Assembly: GCA_000531095.1 (NCBI GenBank)
Contig: HG799465.1
Coordinates: 975,915-1,039,914, forward strand
DNA length: 64,000 nt
DNA from: Gemmata massiliana
GTDB lineage: Bacteria > Planctomycetota > Planctomycetia > Gemmatales > Gemmataceae
Direction of reading: 5' to 3'
Made by a program: the position numbers and the translations under genes. The stretch's first letter is position 1, and the number at the start of each line of letters is the position of its first letter. The notes beneath the pieces were generated by a model. The model had not been told where the DNA came from. It searched no databases and saw only the letters and a list, made by a program, of their open reading frames with translations. Below are positions 11,024 to 22,370 of the stretch, in pieces.

Positions 11024-12517
11024 TCACATCGCCATCGTGACCGTCTTCACTTCGGTGTAGAGTTGGAGCGCGTACTGCCCCAACTCGCGCCCGATGCCCG
11101 ACATCTTGAACCCGCCGAACGGCGCGCCCGCGTCGAACACGTCGAAGCAGTTCACCCACACCGTCCCGGCCCGCAGCCCGTTCGCCAGGCGCAGGGCTTT
11201 TTTCACGTCCTTCGTCCACACCGCCGCCGCGAGGCCGTACTGGGTGCGGTTCCCGCGTGCGATCACCTCGTCGGCGTCCTTGAAGCGCAAGATGCTCATC
11301 ACCGGCCCGAAGATCTCCTCTTGTGCGATCTTCATGTCGTCCTTCACGTCGCCGAACACGGTCGGTTGCACGAAGTACCCCTTCTCGCCCACGCGCCCGC
11401 CGCCCGCGAGCATCTTCGCTCCGTCCTTCTTGCCCCGCCGCGATGTAGCCGAGCACACGATCGAACTGCTCCTGGCTCAACTTTGCGGCCCCTGCTCGGT
11501 GTCCGACGCGAACGGGTCGCCGACCTTGCGCCCCTTCGCCTTCTCGACGATCTTGGCGACAAACGCATCGTACACCGAGTCCTGCACGAACAGCCGGCTC
11601 CCGGCGCAGCAGCACTGCCCCTGGTTGAAGAACAGCCCGAAGTACGCCCCCTCGACCGCGGCGTCGAGGTCCGCGTCGGCGAACACGATGTTTGGGGACT
11701 TCCCACCGAGCTCCAGTGACACGCGCTTGAGGTTGGACTGCGCCGCGGCGGTCATCACGATCTTGCCGGTCCCGGTTTCGCCCGTGAACGCGATCTTGTC
11801 CACGTCCATGTGTCCGGAGAGGGCTGCGCCCGCGGTGGGGCCGTACCCCGGGACGACGTTAATCACGCCGTCGGGGAACCCGACTTCCTGTGCAAGTTGC
11901 GCGACACGAAGGGCGGTCAGCGGGGTCTGCTCCGCGGGCTTCAGCACGAGGGTGTTACCGCACGCGAGGGCCGGCCCCCACTTCCAGGCTTGCATCAGGA
12001 GCGGGAAGTTCCACGGGATGATCTGCCCCACGACGCCGATCGGTTCGTGCCGCGTGTACGTGAAGAACGGGCCGTTGATGGGAATGGTCTGGCCGAAGAT
12101 CTTGTCGGCCCAGCCCGCGTAGTAGCGGTAGCACGCGATGCTGAGCGGTAGGTCGGCGCCCATCGCGTCGTTGAGCGGCTTGCCGTTGTCGAGCGATTCG
12201 AGCGCCGCGAGCTCCTCTTTGTGCTCCTCCACGGCGTCGGCGAGCTTGTTGAGCAGTCGGCCGCGTTCGCTCGCGTTCATGCGCGCCCACGGTCCGTTTT
12301 CAAACGCCTCGCGCGCGGCCCTAACCGCGAGATCGATGTCGGCCTTGTCCCCCTCCGCGATGTTGCAGATGACCGACCCGTCCGTCGGGTCGGTGGTGGC
12401 GAACGTCTTGCCGCTGGCGCTGTTCACCCACTTCCCGCCGATCAGCATCTTCTGATCGACGACGCGGGGTTTGGCGCGAGCGTGCTTCGCTGCAGTCGGT
12501 GCGGTGGCGGTGGCCAT
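11024..12517 (-). pseudogene. NAD(P)-dependent aldehyde dehydrogenase, interrupted by two frameshifts
   Basis: Start at ATG 12517 with GGAG upstream. The first part shows the Rossmann/cofactor region ([26 protein letters not shown]), the catalytic Glu in LELGGKSPN and the catalytic Cys in GQCCCAGSR. At 11482-11484 the frame is lost after TEQGPQ (TTT where one T is expected on the plus strand), giving an immediate stop. At 11433-11436 an extra C restores the original frame. The rest ([29 protein letters not shown]) is intact to the stop at 11024. Removing three bases gives about 496 residues, the usual length. Oxidises aldehydes to acids; substrate unknown. Sequence error or a recent null allele are both possible. 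Confidence 0.85.
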
Positions 12518-12807
12518 GAGAGGAACTCCGGGAGAGTGACGGACGGTACCGGTCGCCATTGTCTCCCGGGGCACGTGCGCGTCAAGAAGTTGGTGGCCGA
12601 ACACCGTTCGTACACGCGCCGAGCGATCTTGAGACAGTACCGATCCCGCCGATCATTTTCGCGCCGCTACAAGTCACATATTCGCTTCAAGCCAGTGGAC
12701 CATAAAAGTCGACCACTTCTGAGACAATCAGTTCGGTGCTGTGGTCGGTGTATCCCGGCGGGGGCCGGGATCGCCCAGAGGGGATAGGTAACTCGGGGGA
12801 ATCGCTC

Positions 12808-15800
12808 ATGAGAACGAGACTGCAAAGATTGGGGCGCGGAGCGGCGCTAGCGCTCCCTCTCGCACTGGCGGCGTGTCAGACGCTCATTAAGCCACCGGAG
12901 CCGTGCGGGGACACGGGCGGACTCACGCCCGCGTGTCACAAAGATCCCACCCTCGAAGCGGTGGCCAGTGACATCGATCACATTGAGAAGCACATCGACC
13001 TCTGGGGGAGCATCACCACGAAGCACCCTGACGTGTGGGGCTCAGCCCGCATGACCAAGTACCAACAGGACGTGGAAACCATCTTTGCTCTGGAACTCAA
13101 GAACCCGGCCAAAATCGACGAGAAGGTGACCGCGTTCCAGGGCGCCCGCGCGCGGGCCGATCAGGCGTTCCTCGCGCAGGCTGTCGCGATCAACGCCGCC
13201 TTTTCTGGGCGGCAGGCGGCGCTACTCGACCCGAACCCGGTCACAGTTGTAACGGGCACACGAACGCTAACGTCCAATTCCACCGGTGACTCGACGGGCA
13301 CGGTGGGTATTGGCAACTCTACCGACAACGAGGCGGGCAAAGACCCCGTCGTGAAGAACAACCAGAAGAGTTCGACGGATACCACATCAAAGGCCAATAC
13401 CGGTGATGATTTAAAACAAACATTTAATACGGCCGTACCGAAAACTGTTGAGATCCCCAAGGGCGCGACGATCCCCAGCGATTTCAGGACTTTCGTGGAT
13501 TCTAAGATGGACGTGACGCGGACCGTTCCACGGCTGCCCGAACTACCGGGGTTCACCGGCCCCACGGGTCTTCAGCTCGAACCGACGATCATCCTCGACG
13601 AGAAAAAGCGGTTTCTCGATCACCTGAACCAGATTCGGCGCGTCAACGAGGGGGACGACACCGCCGACTCGCCCGGGTACGCACTGTACCTGGTGCGGGT
13701 GCCGGTCTCGGTGCTCCCGGGCAAGCGGACCGACTCCGGCCACGGGGCGGAAATCATGATGTCGGTCAAGCCCATTATCGGCGACGACCTGCTGCCGAGC
13801 ACGTTCCGCAGCCTCGTCACCAACGACATGGTCGATCAGTTCAGCGAGCTGATGACGGTCGCGCTTAACTCGGATCGCGAGTCTCTGATCGCCGCCCTCG
13901 GCGACAAAGCCGGCATATCGGCCGATAAAGTCGCGGCCGCTCGGGAAAAGTACCCCAAGGCGACGGAGAAGGAATATCTCCAAAAGATGGTATCACGTGT
14001 GCGCCCCAAATACACGGCCGCACGACCGTCGCGCCACGCCGAATACGCGTTCCCGATGAACCACCTCGAGGAGTTGTTCGGCGAGACCTTCGTTCAATCG
14101 CTCGTCGTCGCTGCTATGGCCCACTACAGGGTCGAACTCGAACGGGACCAGGTGATTCACCTGCACGACACCCGCGCAGCGGTCCGCGAACAGGTCGTCG
14201 CGGGGTACCGGTTTCTGACCACCGCCAACCCGCACACATGGGCACTATGCACGCACGACTTGGCCCGGGCCGTTCGCGACGTGAACGGTACCACCGGGGG
14301 TACCACGATTGCCCATTACCGTGCCCAGTACGATAAAATGCTCGCGCGCGAGTCCGGGGGCCAAAAGAGCATCGAGTCCGACCGGCTCGCGATCAAGGCC
14401 CTCGGCTGGGCGGTGCTGCTCGAGTCAGCGCTCCTGAACGATCAACTCGTGCGTGATATCAAGGAGACGATGACCCACAAGGGCGCGGTCCCCACGGCGG
14501 AGGGGTGGCAGGATTACTTCCACCCGGAGCCGAGCCCGACCGCGCGCCGCGCGTTCAACGACTACGTTGCGTGTCGCTGGCCCATGTACACGTTCGCCGT
14601 GGACCCGGTTACGGAGCAGCAGAACGTCCAGGACACGCTCAGCCAGCGCCGGGAACTCCAACTGGCCCTGTCGCTCGCGTTCGCGTCGGGCAACATCTCC
14701 GCGGAGAGCTTCACCCGCTTCGCCCGGCGGCTGGAGGCCGACTACCAAACCATCGATCTGAACCGCACCGTGGTCGGGTTCTCGCACGGGGACAACACGT
14801 TCGGGTGGCGCTTCTACCCGCGGTTCCAGACCCCGGAGATCCCCGGTAACTTGACCGTGCTGACCCGCGACCTGATCGGCGGGAAGGCGTTCTCCAAGCG
14901 GCAGGAGGTCCACCAGCGGCGCCTGGAGCCCGGGCAGCGCGAGTGCGTCGCACTGGTCATCATGCCGTCGTTCGTCCCGTTCGCCGAGATCAACGTGAGC
15001 AGTTCGTGGTTCAATCTGAACGACCCCAAGCACAAGAGCCACAGCACGAAGGAGGCGGTGCAACTCAGCCGCCGATTGCACGCGATCGAAACAGTGTGCC
15101 CCAAGGGCGACCTGGAGCGCTACCAGGCCGGCGAGCTGAACCGCCTGCAGGCCAAGGCCAAGATGCTCTCGGCCCGGCTCCCGCTCCAGGACATGAAGTT
15201 CCCGGTGCCCTATGAGAACACGCTCGGCGGGTTCGAGTTCTTCAACTCGGGTATCACCGACCTGGCCCCGCAGCTCCGCGGCTGGTACGGCGCGGCCGGG
15301 TACGAGGGCAAGGCCGTCGAGCTGTTCCTCATGGGGGACAACTTCAGCGTCGTCAACACGAACATCATCGCCGGGGGCAAACAAGTTACGCCCAGGCTCA
15401 TCAGCCGCCAGGTCGTGAGTGTCACAATCCCAGAGAATGCGGCCGTAAGCGAGGACAAGGCCGGGTTGTACAGCGAGAGCGGCAAGTTCATCGACGTCCG
15501 CCTGGCCACGCCCTACGGGGTGGGCGGGCCGCTGCGCATCCCGGTTCTCGGGCCGCCGCCGGAACCGGCGCCGGCGCCGAAGAACCCGGTCCCGCCCGTC
15601 CTCAACAAGATCGGCGACAAGCAGACGGTCGTCCTTGAGCGCGACACGGATCTCGTGCTCACCGGCACCGACTTCACTGCCGACACCCGTGTGTTCGCCG
15701 GGGGCAAGACCTGTGTGGCAGAGGTGTTGAGCCGTACGGTCGTAAAGGTGACCGTACCCAAGACGATCGTGCCGTTGCGGAAGGACGGAAAACTGTACGT

Positions 15801-16314
15801 GGAGGTCAAGGTCGCGACCCCTTACGGCGCGAGTGACCCGATCGAGGTTCCTGTGGTGCAGATCCCCGCACCGCCCGTGATGGCCACACCCAAACCGCCG
15901 GCGGCGTTCAGCGCCCCGACGCTAACGGTCGCCTTCCGCTACAAGAACCTGGGTATCGAGGCCGTCGAAGAACCGAACCGCCGGCCGGAACTGACGATCG
16001 CAGTGACCGACCCCGACGCAATCAATCTGCTCCAGGGTAAGGGGACTGCAACCATCGAACTTAAAGCCGATGGGATCGGCACGATCTCACTCGACAACGT
16101 GGCTTATAACGCGGAAGGGAAGCAACTGAGTGGCTTCTCGCTGGCCCTGATGACGAAAATCGTGGGTACTTGCGCGGCGCAGTTCGGCCCGGAAAACGTG
16201 AACCCGCCGGTACCCATCAAATTTGCCAGCGCGATCAAGGTGGACGGCAAAGCTCTCGAGATCGCTAACGGCCTCACCGTGAACTGGGTTCGCGTCCCGA
16301 CCGAGAAGAAGTGA
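12808..16314 (+). CDS. Giant lipoprotein of unknown function
   Basis: 1168 residues from ATG 12808; upstream in-frame codons look non-coding. A lipoprotein signal ends in LALAAC (Cys23). The next 200 residues are helical and then Ser/Thr/Asn-rich (low-complexity linker about 155-215). A large globular part follows (about 230-830). The C-terminal third has two similar beta domains (about 835-910 and 930-1015), each with a VELFLMGDNF- or LVLTGTDFT-like strand and a VRLATPYG or VKVATPYG repeat, resembling IPT/TIG folds, separated by a Pro-rich hinge. No enzymatic motif was recognised. Likely anchored in the outer membrane or periplasm. A strong terminator separates it from the sigma factor gene that follows. 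Confidence 0.82.
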   Translation: MRTRLQRLGRGAALALPLALAACQTLIKPPEPCGDTGGLTPACHKDPTLEAVASDIDHIEKHIDLWGSITTKHPDVWGSARMTKYQQDVETIFALELKNPAKIDEKVTAFQGARARADQAFLAQAVAINAAFSGRQAALLDPNPVTVVTGTRTLTSNSTGDSTGTVGIGNSTDNEAGKDPVVKNNQKSSTDTTSKANTGDDLKQTFNTAVPKTVEIPKGATIPSDFRTFVDSKMDVTRTVPRLPELPGFTGPTGLQLEPTIILDEKKRFLDHLNQIRRVNEGDDTADSPGYALYLVRVPVSVLPGKRTDSGHGAEIMMSVKPIIGDDLLPSTFRSLVTNDMVDQFSELMTVALNSDRESLIAALGDKAGISADKVAAAREKYPKATEKEYLQKMVSRVRPKYTAARPSRHAEYAFPMNHLEELFGETFVQSLVVAAMAHYRVELERDQVIHLHDTRAAVREQVVAGYRFLTTANPHTWALCTHDLARAVRDVNGTTGGTTIAHYRAQYDKMLARESGGQKSIESDRLAIKALGWAVLLESALLNDQLVRDIKETMTHKGAVPTAEGWQDYFHPEPSPTARRAFNDYVACRWPMYTFAVDPVTEQQNVQDTLSQRRELQLALSLAFASGNISAESFTRFARRLEADYQTIDLNRTVVGFSHGDNTFGWRFYPRFQTPEIPGNLTVLTRDLIGGKAFSKRQEVHQRRLEPGQRECVALVIMPSFVPFAEINVSSSWFNLNDPKHKSHSTKEAVQLSRRLHAIETVCPKGDLERYQAGELNRLQAKAKMLSARLPLQDMKFPVPYENTLGGFEFFNSGITDLAPQLRGWYGAAGYEGKAVELFLMGDNFSVVNTNIIAGGKQVTPRLISRQVVSVTIPENAAVSEDKAGLYSESGKFIDVRLATPYGVGGPLRIPVLGPPPEPAPAPKNPVPPVLNKIGDKQTVVLERDTDLVLTGTDFTADTRVFAGGKTCVAEVLSRTVVKVTVPKTIVPLRKDGKLYVEVKVATPYGASDPIEVPVVQIPAPPVMATPKPPAAFSAPTLTVAFRYKNLGIEAVEEPNRRPELTIAVTDPDAINLLQGKGTATIELKADGIGTISLDNVAYNAEGKQLSGFSLALMTKIVGTCAAQFGPENVNPPVPIKFASAIKVDGKALEIANGLTVNWVRVPTEKK

Positions 16315-16364
16315 TTGCAACAGAATTCGTGGCACCCAAGCCGTAACCCGTTCTCTCCCTTCTG

Positions 16365-16412
16365 CCCCGGTCGGTGCGCCTCGTGCGCGCCGACCGGGGT
16401 TTCTCATTTTCG
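16365..16412 (+). terminator. Rho-independent terminator after the giant lipoprotein gene
   Basis: Stem CCCCGGTCGG-TGCGC (16365-16379) pairs with GCGCG-CCGACCGGGG (16385-16399) around a short loop and is followed by TTTCTCATTTT. It lies 50 bp past the stop at 16314. Confidence 0.75.
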
Positions 16413-16454
16413 CATCACTGGTAGGAACCGCCGCGGCGCGGGAACCTAGTTGTG

Positions 16455-18581
16455 ATGACGACACTGCTGCACGCGGTCGCCCGCAGAGCCGAGGCGATCA
16501 CCCCGGACGCCGACCTGCTCGCGCGGTTCACGCGCGACCGGGACCACGCCGCCTTTGAAGAACTGGTGCGCCGACACGGGCCACTCGTGTGGGCCGTGTG
16601 CCGACACATGCTCCCCGACCACGCCGACGCCGAAGATGCGTTTCAGGCCGTGTTCCTCGCGCTCGTGCGGTCCGCCGCGACCATCCGCGACGGCCGGACC
16701 GTGCCCGCGTGGTTGCACGGGGTCGCGGTGCGCGTCGCCACCCGCGCGAAGCGCTCGGGCGCCCGCCGGCGTCAGCGCGAACAGGTCGCGTCCCTTCCCG
16801 AATCCGAGCGCCCGGTGGCGTCCGCGACCTGGGACGCGCTCGTCCGGTCCGTTCACGAAGAAGTTCAGCAGCTCCCGGAAGTGGAGCGCACCGCCTTCGT
16901 GATGTGCGACCTGGAGGGCGTGTCGCAGCCGGACGCCGCGGCGCGGTTGGGCTGGCCGCTGGGGTCACTGTCCGGGCGCCTCTGCAAGGCACGTCAGCGA
17001 CTCATGGAGCGACTCAGTGCCCGCGGGGTCGCGCCCGCGGTCGCGATCGGCATCGGAGTAACGGCCAGCACCACCGGCGCGGTGCCGGGCCGACTGTTCA
17101 ACGTGGTCAGAGCCTTTCCCAGCACACCGACCGCGGCCTCGAACGCCGCGGCGGTGCTCGCTCGCGGATTTACCGAGGGTATCACAATGCGCGTGAAACT
17201 GATGATGGCGAGCGTGGTAATCACCGCGCTCGGGCTGACGGGCGGCGCGGCGCTGCTGTCGAAGGCCGACGCCCAACCGCCCGGTGGCGGGACCGGCACC
17301 AGTTCAAGCGGCGGAACGACGAGCGGCACCACGACGAGTAGTTCCGGATCCACAGGTGGTACGACGAGTGGAACGAGTTCCTCCGGTGCGGATGACACCG
17401 GAACGAGTACGAGCACGGCGAGCGGGACCACTAGTTCTACCGGTTCGGGCAGAACAGCCCCTTCGCCCGCATGGGAATACAAGTTCGTGGACGTGAGGAG
17501 CGACCGCAAAGCGTTCGAGTCGGCCATCACGCAGCACGGCAAGGACGGGTGGGAATTCTGTTCGTCCGAGCGCTTCGGTCCGGCGGAACTCGTCCTCGTG
17601 TTCAAGAAATCCAAGGGCGGAGCGAGCGGCTTCAACCCCTTCGGTGGTGGAGGTAGCGGCAGTTTCGGTGGAGCCGGATTCGGTCAACCAGGCGGAGGTA
17701 GCTCCCCGGGCGGCGGGGGCTTCGGCGGTAGTGGAGGCAACTTCCCAGGTGGCGGGGGAGGTAGCGGCGGATTCGGAGGAAACTTCGGTGGCGGGGGCGG
17801 TGGTAGCACCGGCGGTGGCGGAAATCGCGGCGCGTCAGCAGACCCCGAGCGCAGTTGGCAGATGCTCCAACGGCTCACGAACAGCACCGGCGACACCGTG
17901 GATCTCGGTGCGATCCCCCCACAAACGCGCGATTTCCTGAAGAGCATGACCGAACGAACGGGCGGTGTTCCGCTCCCCGAAAAGGGCACGATGACCAAAG
18001 ACGAGTACCTCAAGTACCACGCACGAAACGAGGCCGCTCGCGGTGGAACCGGTAACAAAGGCGCGTCCGGCGGTGGTGGTACGGAAGGCGGTGGCGGCAC
18101 GAACCCATTCAGCCCGCGTGCGAACCCGAGCCCGGGCGCACTCGACCAAAACCTGTTCCGCGTCGCAACACTGAAGAACGCGAAGGCGGACGACGTGGTG
18201 AAGGCGCTTCAGAAGGAATTCGAGAAGAAGGGATTCAAGAGTGTGGCCGATCGCGCTGCGAACGCGGTGGTCATCATCGCGAGCACGCCGGACGACCTCA
18301 CGAGCGCGCTCAAGCGGATCAAGGAACTCGATACCCCCGCAACGCCCCGCGTGAGTGGTTCGGGAACGCCTGGGAAACCGGATGCGCTCGTCAACGTGTT
18401 CACATTAAAGCACGCAAAAGCCGAAGAACTGGTCACGGTGCTTCAAAAGCTGTTCCCGAACGGCACCATGACGGCGGACCCGCGCACCAACTCGATCGTC
18501 CTCAGCGGGGACACGGAAACGCTCGACACGGCACGGGCTCTCATTGCCCGCCTCGACATGGAAGTGGTCAAGCCGAAGTAG
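16455..18581 (+). CDS. ECF sigma factor fused through a TM helix to secretin-N-like domains
   Basis: 708 residues from ATG 16455 (GTG 16452 is the alternative). Residues about 20-185 are an ECF sigma factor: region 2 (FEELVRRHGPLVWAVC, DAEDAFQAVFLAL) and region 4 (LPEVERTAFVMCDLEGVSQ, SLSGRLCKARQRLMERL). One hydrophobic helix follows (about 249-268, ending GGAALLSKADAQ). Beyond it are a Ser/Thr/Gly linker, a DUF4177-like domain (about 340-385, WEYKFVDVRS ... GKDGWEF), a long Gly-rich stretch (about 390-460), and two secretin_N/NolW-like repeats at about 565-635 and 645-708 (FRVATLKNAKADDVV and VFTLKHAKAEELVT). This predicts a membrane-tethered sigma factor with an extracytoplasmic sensor. Confidence 0.9.
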   Translation: MTTLLHAVARRAEAITPDADLLARFTRDRDHAAFEELVRRHGPLVWAVCRHMLPDHADAEDAFQAVFLALVRSAATIRDGRTVPAWLHGVAVRVATRAKRSGARRRQREQVASLPESERPVASATWDALVRSVHEEVQQLPEVERTAFVMCDLEGVSQPDAAARLGWPLGSLSGRLCKARQRLMERLSARGVAPAVAIGIGVTASTTGAVPGRLFNVVRAFPSTPTAASNAAAVLARGFTEGITMRVKLMMASVVITALGLTGGAALLSKADAQPPGGGTGTSSSGGTTSGTTTSSSGSTGGTTSGTSSSGADDTGTSTSTASGTTSSTGSGRTAPSPAWEYKFVDVRSDRKAFESAITQHGKDGWEFCSSERFGPAELVLVFKKSKGGASGFNPFGGGGSGSFGGAGFGQPGGGSSPGGGGFGGSGGNFPGGGGGSGGFGGNFGGGGGGSTGGGGNRGASADPERSWQMLQRLTNSTGDTVDLGAIPPQTRDFLKSMTERTGGVPLPEKGTMTKDEYLKYHARNEAARGGTGNKGASGGGGTEGGGGTNPFSPRANPSPGALDQNLFRVATLKNAKADDVVKALQKEFEKKGFKSVADRAANAVVIIASTPDDLTSALKRIKELDTPATPRVSGSGTPGKPDALVNVFTLKHAKAEELVTVLQKLFPNGTMTADPRTNSIVLSGDTETLDTARALIARLDMEVVKPK

Positions 18582-18602
18582 TCCGCACGCGCCTCCGAGT
18601 CG

Positions 18603-18642
18603 AGCGCACCGGGCTTCCATCCGGTGCGCTCTTTCTTTTTGT
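18603..18642 (+). terminator. Rho-independent terminator after the sigma factor gene
   Basis: Perfect 11-bp stem GAGCGCACCGG / CCGGTGCGCTC with an 8-nt loop, then TTTCTTTTTG. It lies 21 bp past the stop at 18581. Confidence 0.85.
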
Positions 18643-18717
18643 TGCAGGGGCGCGCACGCTCGCCGAAAAGCGCCCCGTCAGCGACAATAAACTCGTCCCC
18701 ATTCCGACGAGTTTGTC

Positions 18718-20265
18718 ATGCCACACCGTCCGACGTTCGACGAGTTCACCGCACTCGCGCGCGAGCACACCGTTGTGCCCGTGTACCGCCAGCTCACCGG
18801 CGACACGCTCACGCCCGTGTCCGCGTTCTGCAAGTTGCAAGAAGGGGACTGGTCGTTCCTGTTCGAGAGCGTCGTCGGCGGCGAGCGCGTGGGGCGGTAC
18901 AGTTTTCTGGGCGCCGGGCCGTTCATGACGTTCCAGGCGCGCGGGAAAAACGTGGTCGTCCGGAACGCGGGCGAGCGCGAGGGCCGCGAGTTCACGTGCG
19001 AAGACCCGCTCCGGCTCCTGGAAGAAACGATCGCGCGGTTCCGCGCCCCGAGCGTGTTCGGCTTACCGCGGTTCTGCGGCGGCGCCGTCGGCTACGCGGG
19101 CTACGACACCGTTCGGTACGTGGAGCACCTGCCCAACGCCCCAGAGGACGACCGCAAACTGCCCGACCTGAGCTTCGGTTTCTACGACCGAATGGTCATC
19201 TTCGACCACGCCGCGAAGACGATCCTGGTCGTGGCGCACGCCCGGCTGGACGGGTACCAGGCGTCGGGCTCGGAGTACCGCGAAGACGACCTGCGGGCGG
19301 CGTACCAGGCCGCGTGCCGCGGGGTCGATGAACTGGTCGGGCGCCTCCAGCGTGGCGTCGCGGACATTCAACTGACGGACATCGACCCGAAGCGCCGGGC
19401 CTCCGCCGAGCCCCGGTCGCCGATCCCCGACGCGCGAATCCAATCGAACTTCACGCGCCCCACGTTCGAGGCCGCGGTGGAGAAGGTGCGCGAGTACATC
19501 AACGCGGGCGATGCGTTCCAGATCGTGCTCAGTCAGCGGTTCCGCACCGAAACGCGGGCGCGGCCGTTCGACATCTACCGCTCGCTGCGGGTCGTGAACC
19601 CCAGCCCGTTCATGTTCTTCGTGCGAGCCGGCGAGGTCACGCTCGTCGGGGCGTCGCCGGAAATCATGTGCCGCGTCGAGAACGGCGTCATCACGAACCG
19701 CCCGCTGGCCGGCACCCGGCGCCGCGGGGCGACGCCCGAAGAAGACGCGGCGCTCGCGGCCGAGCTAATCGCCGACCCGAAGGAACGGGCCGAGCACATC
19801 ATGCTCGTGGACCTCGCGCGGAACGACGTCGGCCGCGTCGCGGAGTTGGGCAGCGTGAAGATCAGCGACCTGCTCACGGTCGAGCGCTACAGCCACGTCA
19901 TGCACCTTTCGAGCACCGTCACAGGTAAGCTCCGGCCGGGGCTTACCGCGTTCGATGCCCTCCGCGCAAGTCTCCCGGCCGGCACGCTCTCAGGCGCACC
20001 GAAGGTACGAGCGATGGAAATCATCGACGAACTGGAACCGCACCGCCGCGGGCCGTATGGCGGGGCCGTCGGGTACGTTGACTTCAGCGGCAACATGGAC
20101 ACGTGCATCGCGCTACGCACGATGGTGCTGCTCGGCCAAACGGCTTACGTTCAGGCGGGGGCCGGGTTGGTCGCGGACAGCATCCCCGCGGCCGAGTACC
20201 AGGAAACTGTGGACAAAGCCGCGAGCCTGCTCCGCGCGATCGAGGTGGCCGAGACGCAGCTATAA
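18718..20265 (+). CDS. trpE: Anthranilate synthase component I
   Basis: 515 residues. Converts chorismate plus glutamine-derived ammonia to anthranilate, the first step of tryptophan synthesis. The N-terminal lobe (about 1-200) includes [18 protein letters not shown]. The chorismate-binding lobe (about 240-505) has the family motifs [73 protein letters not shown] and [10 protein letters not shown]. Full length. No trpG glutaminase gene is adjacent. A 71-residue membrane protein follows 16 bp downstream. Confidence 0.93.
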
Positions 20266-20281
20266 CGAGGGACCAGCGCCC

Positions 20282-20497
20282 ATGCTGTTCGCGGACGATT
20301 TTGAAGGGTGGAAGAAGCTCGCCGCACTGATCGCGCTCGCGGTGCTTGTGACACTCGGGTTCGTATTTCGGGATTACGAATCGGGAGCAGCGGCCGGCGA
20401 ACGGCTCCGAAAAAAGCACCCCGTACTCGCCCGTATCGTCGGCCTCCTGATACTGCTCGCGTTCGTCGTCCTCGTCGTATTCGTCCGCTCAAGATGA
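20282..20497 (+). CDS. Small two-TM membrane protein
   Basis: 71 residues from ATG 20282. Two hydrophobic helices (about residues 11-28 and 50-68) are separated by a charged loop (GERLRKKHP). It sits 16 bp after trpE and 13 bp before the next gene, so it is probably co-transcribed. No known family was recognised. Confidence 0.6.
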   Translation: MLFADDFEGWKKLAALIALAVLVTLGFVFRDYESGAAAGERLRKKHPVLARIVGLLILLAFVVLVVFVRSR

Positions 20498-20510
20498 ACC
20501 CGGAGCCGTT

Positions 20511-21569
20511 ATGCGCTCGCGAATCGCGTGTCTGCTGTTGATGGCCACGGCGAGCGGCGTCGCGTTCCCACAGGAACCGCTGGTTTCGGGCGATCCGGCG
20601 CGCGTCGAGCGCATCCGCAAGGCTGCGATGCCGAAGATCGACAAGCCCGTCTCATTCGACACCCCCGAAGCCGACGCGATCCTCGCCGCCCTCGAAGTGT
20701 TCCCGGAAGACAACCCGTGGAACCTCGTCGTCAGCGGCTGGCCGCTGCACCCGAAATCAAAGGAAATCATCGCGTCCATCGGTGCGAGCAAGCCGCTGCG
20801 ATACAACCCGGACATGAGCTTCGTGCTGGTCCCGCCCGGCGAGAAGAAGATCGATGTGAAGCTCGTGAGCTACCCGAAGGAGTCCGATAAGGGGCCGTAC
20901 CCGCTGCCCGACGTCGTGCCGATCGAAGGATGGCCCGCGAGCTACAAACGAAACGCCAAGCTGAAGGACGTCACGCTCGAAGACGTTCAACGCGACAAGT
21001 TGAAAGAGAACGGCGACCGACACGCGATCGTCGTCGACCCGACCAACCGAATGCTGTACGAGTTCTACCAACTGAAGAAGACCGATACGGGCTGGCAGGC
21101 CGCGTGCGAGGCGACGTTCGACCTCAAGAGCAACAAGCTCCGACCGAGCGGCTGGACGAGTTCCGACGCGGCCGGGCTACCAATTTTCCCCGCGATCATC
21201 CGCCACGACGAATTGAAGCGCGGCGCGATCGAGCACGCGATGCGCGTGACCGTGGCGAGGTCGGCCAAATCTTACGTTTACCCCGCGACTCACTTCGCGA
21301 GCCGCCGGACCGAAGCGGACCTGCCGCGCATGGGCGAGCGCATCCGGCTGCGGAAGGACTTCGACGCGTCGAAGTGTACGGCCGAAGTGAAGGTGATTCT
21401 GGAAGCGCTGAAGAAGTACGGGATGCTGGTCGCGGACAACGGCATCGACTGGGCGCTCTCGTGCGCCCCCGACGAGCGCATTCCGGTGCTTCACGAGGAA
21501 CTGCGAAAGGTTAAAGGCTCGGATTTCGAGGTGATCCTGCCCCCAGAGGGGTACAAGCCGGCGAAGTGA
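20511..21569 (+). CDS. Secreted protein of unknown function
   Basis: 352 residues. The signal peptide (MRSRIACLLLMATASGVAF) is followed by a globular region with notable segments DNPWNLVVSGWPLHP, HAIVVDPTNRMLYEFYQ, SDAAGLPIFPAIIRHDEL and YPATHFASRR. The mix of conserved Asp, His and Arg residues suggests an enzyme or sugar-binding fold, but no named family can be assigned. It is in line with trpE and the small membrane protein; whether they are functionally related is unclear. Confidence 0.75.
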   Translation: MRSRIACLLLMATASGVAFPQEPLVSGDPARVERIRKAAMPKIDKPVSFDTPEADAILAALEVFPEDNPWNLVVSGWPLHPKSKEIIASIGASKPLRYNPDMSFVLVPPGEKKIDVKLVSYPKESDKGPYPLPDVVPIEGWPASYKRNAKLKDVTLEDVQRDKLKENGDRHAIVVDPTNRMLYEFYQLKKTDTGWQAACEATFDLKSNKLRPSGWTSSDAAGLPIFPAIIRHDELKRGAIEHAMRVTVARSAKSYVYPATHFASRRTEADLPRMGERIRLRKDFDASKCTAEVKVILEALKKYGMLVADNGIDWALSCAPDERIPVLHEELRKVKGSDFEVILPPEGYKPAK

Positions 21570-21617
21570 CGATTTTGTGGAGTGGGTCCAAGTTTCGCGC
21601 AGGCCCACCTGTTCCGT

Positions 21618-22370
21618 TCATTGTCCTGTTTCAGTTAGTTCGTCGCGGGTCCGGCGCGAGATGCCGTCGAATGCGGCCATGTAGGTCGCTTCGAGCGGAA
21701 CGTTCACGTAAGCACCGGGTTCGAGGAACAGTGGCATCTCCGGGAGCACTTCCCCCACGGCAATTGGTTGAATGTACGCGCGACTCACCACACCCGCTTC
21801 ATAAGAGACGAGGGTGAGCGGTTGGTTCGCGGGTGGCGAGTACGGCTCGTCCCGGAACTCGGACCAGATGACCGGATGCACCCCGTTCGGGTCGCGCGGC
21901 CCCGGCGGGAACAGGTCCACAACCAAAACGTGAATCCCGTGGTCGATGGCCGCGGTCACCTTCCGAACGAACGCCTGAATCCCGTGACGGTTCGACTTGT
22001 TACCCGGCGAAACCAGTTCGATTAGCGCAACGATTCGATCGTCGCGACGAACGGTGATGGTCTTTCGCAACCGCGTGTACGGGTCGCTCGCGAACTCAGA
22101 CGTGAACGAAACCTTCGGCGGAGCAATTGCGACCGTTGATAACCCACCAATTGGCCCCGGATGCGCCCCCTCGCCGTTCCCTCCCAATAGGGAAGTCAGG
22201 CGCAAGGCAAGGACGTCGGGAATACCGTCATCGGTATGTTGCTCGACCTTCGCTTCGTAATCCGGAGGCAACAAACCGTTGTTGAGCGCGGACCGAATTT
22301 GTGGCGCCCAACCCTGATGGAAGTCGTGGAACGTCCCGTGATCGACTCGGGTCCAATCGTGAATCGGCAT
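21618..22370 (-). CDS. DUF4058 family protein
   Basis: 250 residues from ATG 22370, which has GAGGAGGAG directly upstream. The N-terminal signature MPIHDWTRVDHGTFHDFHQGW and LNNGLLPPDYEAKVEQH is diagnostic of DUF4058, a family expanded in planctomycetes and cyanobacteria. A central segment (RIVALIELVSPGNK) resembles nuclease/Uma2-like cores, with alternating acidic residues. Function is unproven. It lies 22 bp downstream of a DUF1501 gene on the same strand and may share its transcript. Confidence 0.88.
   Translation of the reverse strand: MPIHDWTRVDHGTFHDFHQGWAPQIRSALNNGLLPPDYEAKVEQHTDDGIPDVLALRLTSLLGGNGEGAHPGPIGGLSTVAIAPPKVSFTSEFASDPYTRLRKTITVRRDDRIVALIELVSPGNKSNRHGIQAFVRKVTAAIDHGIHVLVVDLFPPGPRDPNGVHPVIWSEFRDEPYSPPANQPLTLVSYEAGVVSRAYIQPIAVGEVLPEMPLFLEPGAYVNVPLEATYMAAFDGISRRTRDELTETGQ

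Follow-up and report, generated by a model that had tools for sequence, protein, structure and literature searches.

The locus raises the question of why a sigma factor should be encoded in one frame with domains that belong on the far side of the membrane, and whether such a frame yields one protein or two. The window is the whole stretch of 64,000 nucleotides of Gemmata massiliana DNA that was analysed. Planctomycete genomes encode dozens of sigma factors with extracytoplasmic parts attached to them, and the preliminary description read this gene as an ECF sigma factor joined through a membrane helix to a DUF4177-like and two secretin-N-like domains, one that, if made as a single chain, would stay at the membrane until cleaved or remodelled. 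We consider it rather probable that the gene is self-regulated from an ECF-type promoter and yields two products through two starts and a signal peptidase I cut, a sigma factor tethered to the membrane and a secretin-N-like cargo that is secreted.

Domain architecture and its conservation

The frame as read in the window is open throughout its 708 codons (Table 1), and the domains assigned earlier were borne out by Pfam, phmmer and a structure model. The Pfam scan of the protein matched Sigma70_r2 (residues 37-104, 6.8e-15) and Sigma70_r4_2 (132-183, 1.1e-10); regions 2 and 4 of sigma70 are present and region 3 is absent, as in ECF sigma factors. DUF4177 (PF13783) was matched at 340-385 with 9.6e-5 and 23 bits, against a Pfam cut-off of 25. 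Secretin_N (PF03958) was matched by two stretches (4e-25, best 647-701), and the C-terminal part, whose secretin-N assignment had been left to a profile search, matches it at 5e-27 when residues 553-708 are scanned alone; the same residues matched GspD chains in phmmer (best 3.1e-8). The Secretin pore domain PF00263 is absent at E up to 1, and neither WD40 nor any anti-sigma domain is matched in the protein by Pfam; a short anti-sigma helix in the linker is possible. The AlphaFold model, based on 13 sequences (mean pLDDT 64.9, good in the domains only), contains the sigma part, a strand-helix-strand-strand unit at 339-387, a mostly helical module at 464-530 and two secretin-N-like domains. In VIA-align the sigma folds at 14-191 resemble sigmaE/SigW (Z up to 13.5), and residues 562-704 superpose on the GspD N domains (Z about 11-12). 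The extra helical module gave nothing below E 0.49 against solved structures with phmmer. A single hydrophobic stretch is present, at about residues 249-268.

Table 1. Features of the sigma fusion gene and its flanks (window positions; residue numbers in brackets)
Feature	Position	Strand	Remark
Terminator-like hairpin, 16-pair stem	16364..16400	+	between upstream gene and fusion gene
Promoter-like element GTAGGAACC-N10-GGGAACCTA	16421..16448	+	putative promoter
Sigma-TM-DUF4177-Secretin_N gene	16455..18581	+	708 aa, ATG start
ECF sigma regions 2 (37-104) and 4 (132-183)	16563..17003	+	
Internal Shine-Dalgarno core GAGG	17175..17178	+	
Internal ATG, Met245	17187..17189	+	probable second start
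Signal-peptide-like stretch (245-273) ending ADA/Q	17187..17273	+	predicted cleavage
DUF4177-like domain (340-385)	17472..17609	+	
Extra, mostly helical module (464-530)	17844..18044	+	common to secreted protein on L248
Secretin_N-like domain 1 (about 566-625)	18150..18329	+	Pfam and structure model
Secretin_N-like domain 2 (645-701)	18387..18557	+	Pfam and structure model
Terminator-like hairpin, 12-pair stem	18602..18631	+	directly 3' of fusion gene

A frame break between the sigma and membrane parts, named earlier as an objection to the fusion, was looked for in relatives. Sixteen genes were aligned, nine in the genus (including the present one) and seven in four other genera; they were chosen for closed frames and visible tails, after the tails had been seen. 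All 16 form one closed frame from sigma to end, in the order sigma, helix, low-complexity linker, DUF4177-like domain, linker, Secretin_N. Since the closed frame is kept across five genera, a frameshift or assembly artefact behind the fusion is ruled out. When eight later-scanned relatives are added, both sigma domains are found in 24 of 24 genes, Secretin_N in 18 and DUF4177 in 12 (E up to 0.01); six of the eight have the sigma part and no Secretin_N match. Several other relatives' genes end at contig ends, and two are broken in frame (L018, L049). In L049 / L037 (genome G087) the Secretin_N part lies out of the sigma frame, owing to a frameshift or a sequencing error within the Gly-rich linker. 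Of the 19 genomes of the genus, 11 contain a match at E ≤ 1e-60; in the family, 25 of 95 genomes and 6 of 39 genera do so at E ≤ 1e-55. Many of these matches rest mainly on the sigma part.

The genome itself (9.27 Mb, 22 contigs) contains 100 places that match the protein at E ≤ 0.001. The 59 genes analysed were the present gene, L002 and 57 others fetched mainly in list order from its upper part; fragments and short sigma genes were left out, as were some full-length genes (e.g. L006, L010). Both sigma domains are present in 59/59. The two cysteines C49 and C151, one per sigma domain, do not vary among the 16 aligned genes and hardly vary among the 59. The statement that C-terminal extensions are known on planctomycete sigma factors and a secretin-N-type end is unusual agrees with these data: a hydrophobic helix follows the sigma part in 56 of the 57 paralogs examined (mainly top of the list), and 14 of the 59 genes match the propeller model found most often. 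Secretin_N has 18 matches (E ≤ 0.01) in six open frames of the genome, three of them sigma fusions, namely the present gene, L002 (61% identity, residues 2-438) and L105 (40% in residues 12-275, 24% for the full alignment). As the sigma part of L105 is no nearer to the present one than are many paralogs, Secretin_N may have been joined to sigma factors on two separate occasions. L105 (265-2574) carries no GTAGGAA element upstream. The closest paralog, L002, forms a divergent pair with a second sigma-TM gene, L140 (C4:542700-547100 of the same genome). Elsewhere in this genome L108 encodes a stand-alone Secretin_N protein with a signal-peptide-like start, and a Secretin_N frame of 2280 aa lies at C4:905000-913500; an ORF listing gave none of 1200 aa there.

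The upstream promoter-like element

The gene is preceded, at window positions 12736-16314, by a gene for a protein of 1192 aa with, by eye, a lipoprotein-like N-terminus and IPT/TIG-like repeats. The terminator-like hairpins flanking the fusion gene belong to a region with three of them, against 3.1 in shuffles, i.e. no excess. No sigma70-type promoter was found in 15900-19000.

The promoter-like element consists here of GGAAC (16424-16428), a spacer of 16 nt and CCTA (16445-16448). Close relatives have GTAGGAA-N12-GGGAACYTA in common upstream of the start codon, and members that are less closely related retain the 12-nt spacing, followed by CGTA, CATA or other letters. The pattern TAGGAA-N12-GGGAACYTA has 14 exact matches in 95 genomes, compared with three for a reversed-pattern control; all 14 precede genes of this sigma family, one of them in another genus. 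Among the 14 genes, three run off a contig end and two are broken; their C-terminal parts are therefore partly out of view. The short form GTAGGAA-N12-GGGAAC gave 37 matches against 26 for a control that is a total count only, so the signal is the location of the matches and not their number: 26 of the 37 are followed within 900 nt by a sigma homolog (22 among 30 loci inspected, three among loci already identified and one added later) and 11 are not. One of the 26 sigma-linked genes, L075, is only 30% identical. L048 has the element and lacks a Secretin_N match, which indicates that the element tracks the sigma clade rather than the cargo.

Read as GGAAY-N16-CNTA, the element is of the ECF promoter form. 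In most members 9 nt separate GGGAAC from the start codon, in others 18-59 nt (159 nt in L045 is an artefact of a misplaced start); the longer distances imply a leader in those members, and the mRNA of the present gene would be nearly leaderless. By eye, the sister-clade genes L176, L180, L182 and L183 have another element (GCAGAAC, then ACAAT or ACATT) in a similar place, as would be expected if promoter and sigma factor diverge together. Standing just ahead of the start codon, and with all 14 exact matches in front of genes of this family, the element is probably an ECF-type promoter on which the product of the gene itself acts; as a private element it offers a direct reporter for one such sigma factor. 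Searches with the element gave no convincing target beyond sigma-family genes in the same genome. Two candidates there with the full element and one mismatch (L026, L027) were rejected, as they lie inside longer open frames with no sigma gene; the 11 short-form matches away from sigma genes were likewise rejected as a regulon, being fewer than the 26 of the control. In a related sigma subfamily another motif was seen by eye upstream of L110, L112, L114 and L115, GCGCGACGCGC followed by a GGGGA-TA-like stretch, which suggests private promoters in other subfamilies too.

Internal start signals and the signal-peptide-like stretch

The hydrophobic stretch had been described as a TM helix. The stretch stands; that reading is incomplete, as its form is that of a cleavable signal peptide with start signals of its own. 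It is preceded by M-R-V-K and followed by ADA/Q (the slash marks the expected cut, after residue 273), and GAGG lies 8 nt ahead of the Met245 ATG, with its first letter at -12, within the range of most gene starts. A273 and Q274 hardly vary across the 16 aligned genes within an otherwise divergent linker (the site is altered in L015 to ADD/Q), and AxA after the hydrophobic stretch, a feature of signal peptidase I substrates, is conserved, so that cleavage is predicted. A loose AxA motif follows the helix in 53 of the 59 genes of the same genome, a count with no null model. Given the signal-peptide form, the conserved AxA/Q and the internal start signals, the cell probably also makes the extracytoplasmic half as a secreted protein in its own right.

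Among the sigma-TM genes, Met was searched for within 18 residues before the helix and a Shine-Dalgarno core (AGGA, GGAG or GAGG) at -16 to -4. In the genome itself 45 of the 59 genes have Met in this zone, and the core is present at 33 of these 45 sites, where synonymous codons would give 10.4 (sd 2.6, maximum 20 in 5000). This motif-based test was devised after a duplex-energy test and is thus a post hoc choice for this genome. The core occurs at 35 of 348 other internal Mets and at 35 of 59 predicted gene starts. The Gly of a Gly-Val pair at the sites is encoded by GGA in 20 of 26 cases compared with 34 of 264 elsewhere (9e-12). A set of relatives (26 genes, 23 sites) has the core at 19/23 versus 9.5 expected (maximum 17), with a GGA enrichment that is non-significant (3/11 vs 10/111, p 0.09).

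The same core test was repeated on a second set, obtained in a separate search of another collection and comprising 80 loci, of which 7 were not long enough and 10 lacked a Met in the zone. The loci are mostly titled Gemmataceae, Gemmata or Fimbriiglobus, and some genes repeat earlier ones (e.g. L165 = L013). The core is present at 55 of 63 sites versus 16.9 expected from synonymous codons (maximum 29 in 3000), or 55/62 without near-duplicates, compared with 48/426 other internal Mets and 39/80 predicted gene starts; Gly codons near the site are GGA in 38/48 versus 260/2554 elsewhere (4e-28). Predicted local structure of the mRNA is weaker than in synonymous versions by +1.9 kcal/mol in the same genome (p 7e-7; 51 sites, including six GTG sites picked post hoc) and by +2.8 kcal/mol in the second set (p 4e-10), and controls 60 and 100 codons upstream have the opposite sign. 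The 24 genes with no Met in the zone (14 in the same genome, 10 in the second set) have, on post hoc inspection, GTG in 8, CTG in 1, Met outside the zone in 3 and none of these in 12; in L130 the start codon is one residue off the spot.

The proposed circuit and its alternatives

From the architecture, the conserved element, the internal start signals and the AxA/Q site, all read in the sequence, we infer promoter use, two products, cleavage and sigma release as follows. The gene would form a separate transcription unit, with its ECF-type promoter read by its own sigma domain. Initiation at Met1 would give a sigma-TM-cargo chain held in the membrane. From Met245 only the cargo would be made, as a DUF4177/Secretin_N protein that carries an ordinary signal peptide and is secreted. 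Both forms would be cleaved behind ADA by signal peptidase I, which would leave a remnant signal peptide on the tethered sigma factor; a site-2 protease could remove it, and the freed sigma factor would transcribe its own gene. M50 proteases are encoded by six open frames in this genome. Precedents for single steps are reported in three papers: the anti-sigma factor RsiP is cut by signal peptidase as site-1 protease (PMC8844934), RseP clears signal peptides from the membrane (PMC8144685), and in IutY, Prc and RseP release the sigma factor from a fusion protein (PMC8999054). Against a cut in both forms, the AxA/Q site may serve the short product only.

The main rival to the two-start reading is a programmed elongation pause, in which the internal Shine-Dalgarno-like sequence would slow the ribosome before the TM helix for folding or membrane targeting and only the full-length protein would be made. 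Such pauses have been described in the targeting of E. coli membrane proteins (PMC4359368). The spacing is long in many paralogs, where the 4-mer mostly begins at -15 or -16 compared with -13 to -8 for the majority of predicted gene starts, and the duplex-energy test against synonymous codons was non-significant (median p 0.31 and 0.36), whereas duplex energies differ strongly from those at other internal Mets. Against a pause, a start codon is retained at the spot, ATG in 45 of the 59 genes and, post hoc, GTG or CTG in 9 of the 24 that lack Met in the zone, and the distance from Shine-Dalgarno to Met varies less than that to the TM helix (sd 3.2 vs 5.3 nt). GC3 is low both before and after the Met, which also speaks against a pause, although other stretches of the same-genome set reach -0.10 as well. 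Mets before TM stretches carried the core in 12 of 40 cases, a control that read stop-to-stop frames and so includes true gene starts; ORFs of polytopic proteins were used instead and gave just 1/16. We consider a pause possible but doubtful.

Two further explanations concern other parts of the proposal. An intact, full-length tethered sigma factor might sense the state of the envelope or of a secretin through its periplasmic Secretin_N part and be released by regulated proteolysis, as in IutY (PMC8999054). The continuous frame in all 16 aligned genes agrees with this, as does the positive charge ahead of the helix in the sequence, from which the C-terminus should face out; the conserved signal-peptidase-type site, the internal start signals and the lack of an anti-sigma match in Pfam leave such a sensor rather doubtful. 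The upstream element could alternatively serve some other regulator as its operator, or act at the RNA level, instead of being the promoter of this sigma factor. Here the conserved GGGAAC within the spacer, which the ECF promoter form leaves unexplained and which would be unusual for it, and the empty regulon searches count in favour. We nevertheless find an operator or RNA element unlikely, given the element's ECF promoter form, its position 18-59 nt upstream with a leader in some relatives, and the different element seen by eye in a similar place in several sister-clade genes. Rfam gave no match in 12000-22000, and a hairpin within the element, considered as a candidate, is not conserved by eye.

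The proposed two-product gene may be set beside known systems. ECF57-like planctomycete sigma factors share with it an ECF sigma factor with a large C-terminal part and the two cysteines, which in sigma2 and sigma4 are typical of ECF57 (PMC8999054); the present gene differs in having DUF4177 and Secretin_N instead of the WD40 extension, prevalent though not universal in ECF57, and in its private promoter-like element, and perhaps also in its internal start signals. IutY (ECF243, a sigma/anti-sigma fusion released by Prc and RseP) also has its sigma factor fused via a membrane helix to an extracytoplasmic part, whereas here no anti-sigma domain is matched and a signal-peptidase-type site and a predicted second start are present. 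RsiP-type systems likewise have a signal-peptidase-type site beside a membrane helix controlling an ECF sigma factor, but there the cut falls on the anti-sigma factor, while here the sigma chain itself bears the site. The Secretin_N fold is that of the GspD/PilQ N domains, from which the protein differs by lacking the pore domain. The literature found on planctomycete sigma genes consisted of reviews and WD40-type extensions, with neither an internal start nor a Secretin_N fusion, and an earlier mention is possible; of the terms secretin, ECF sigma factor, planctomycet and DUF4177, at most two occurred together in one paper.

We would extend the proposal only tentatively to planctomycete sigma-TM fusion genes as a dual-start class, in which export of the cargo, through signal peptidase and a site-2 protease, would free the sigma factor for its own gene. 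If true, this would be a one-gene, secretion-coupled feedback circuit with dozens of copies per genome and varied cargos. From the internal starts one would expect many sigma-TM genes to yield a second product that is secreted. Secretin_N domains are part of secretin rings, so it is possible that the present cargo docks on a secretin or self-assembles. A protein encoded on L248 (570-2072; C2:1001400-1004600 of the same genome, minus strand) has 66% identity to residues 399-550, a likeness that may reflect shuffling of a cargo module among secreted proteins. The L248 protein is Gly-rich, has a signal-peptide-like start and, by eye, continues into EF-hand-like repeats.
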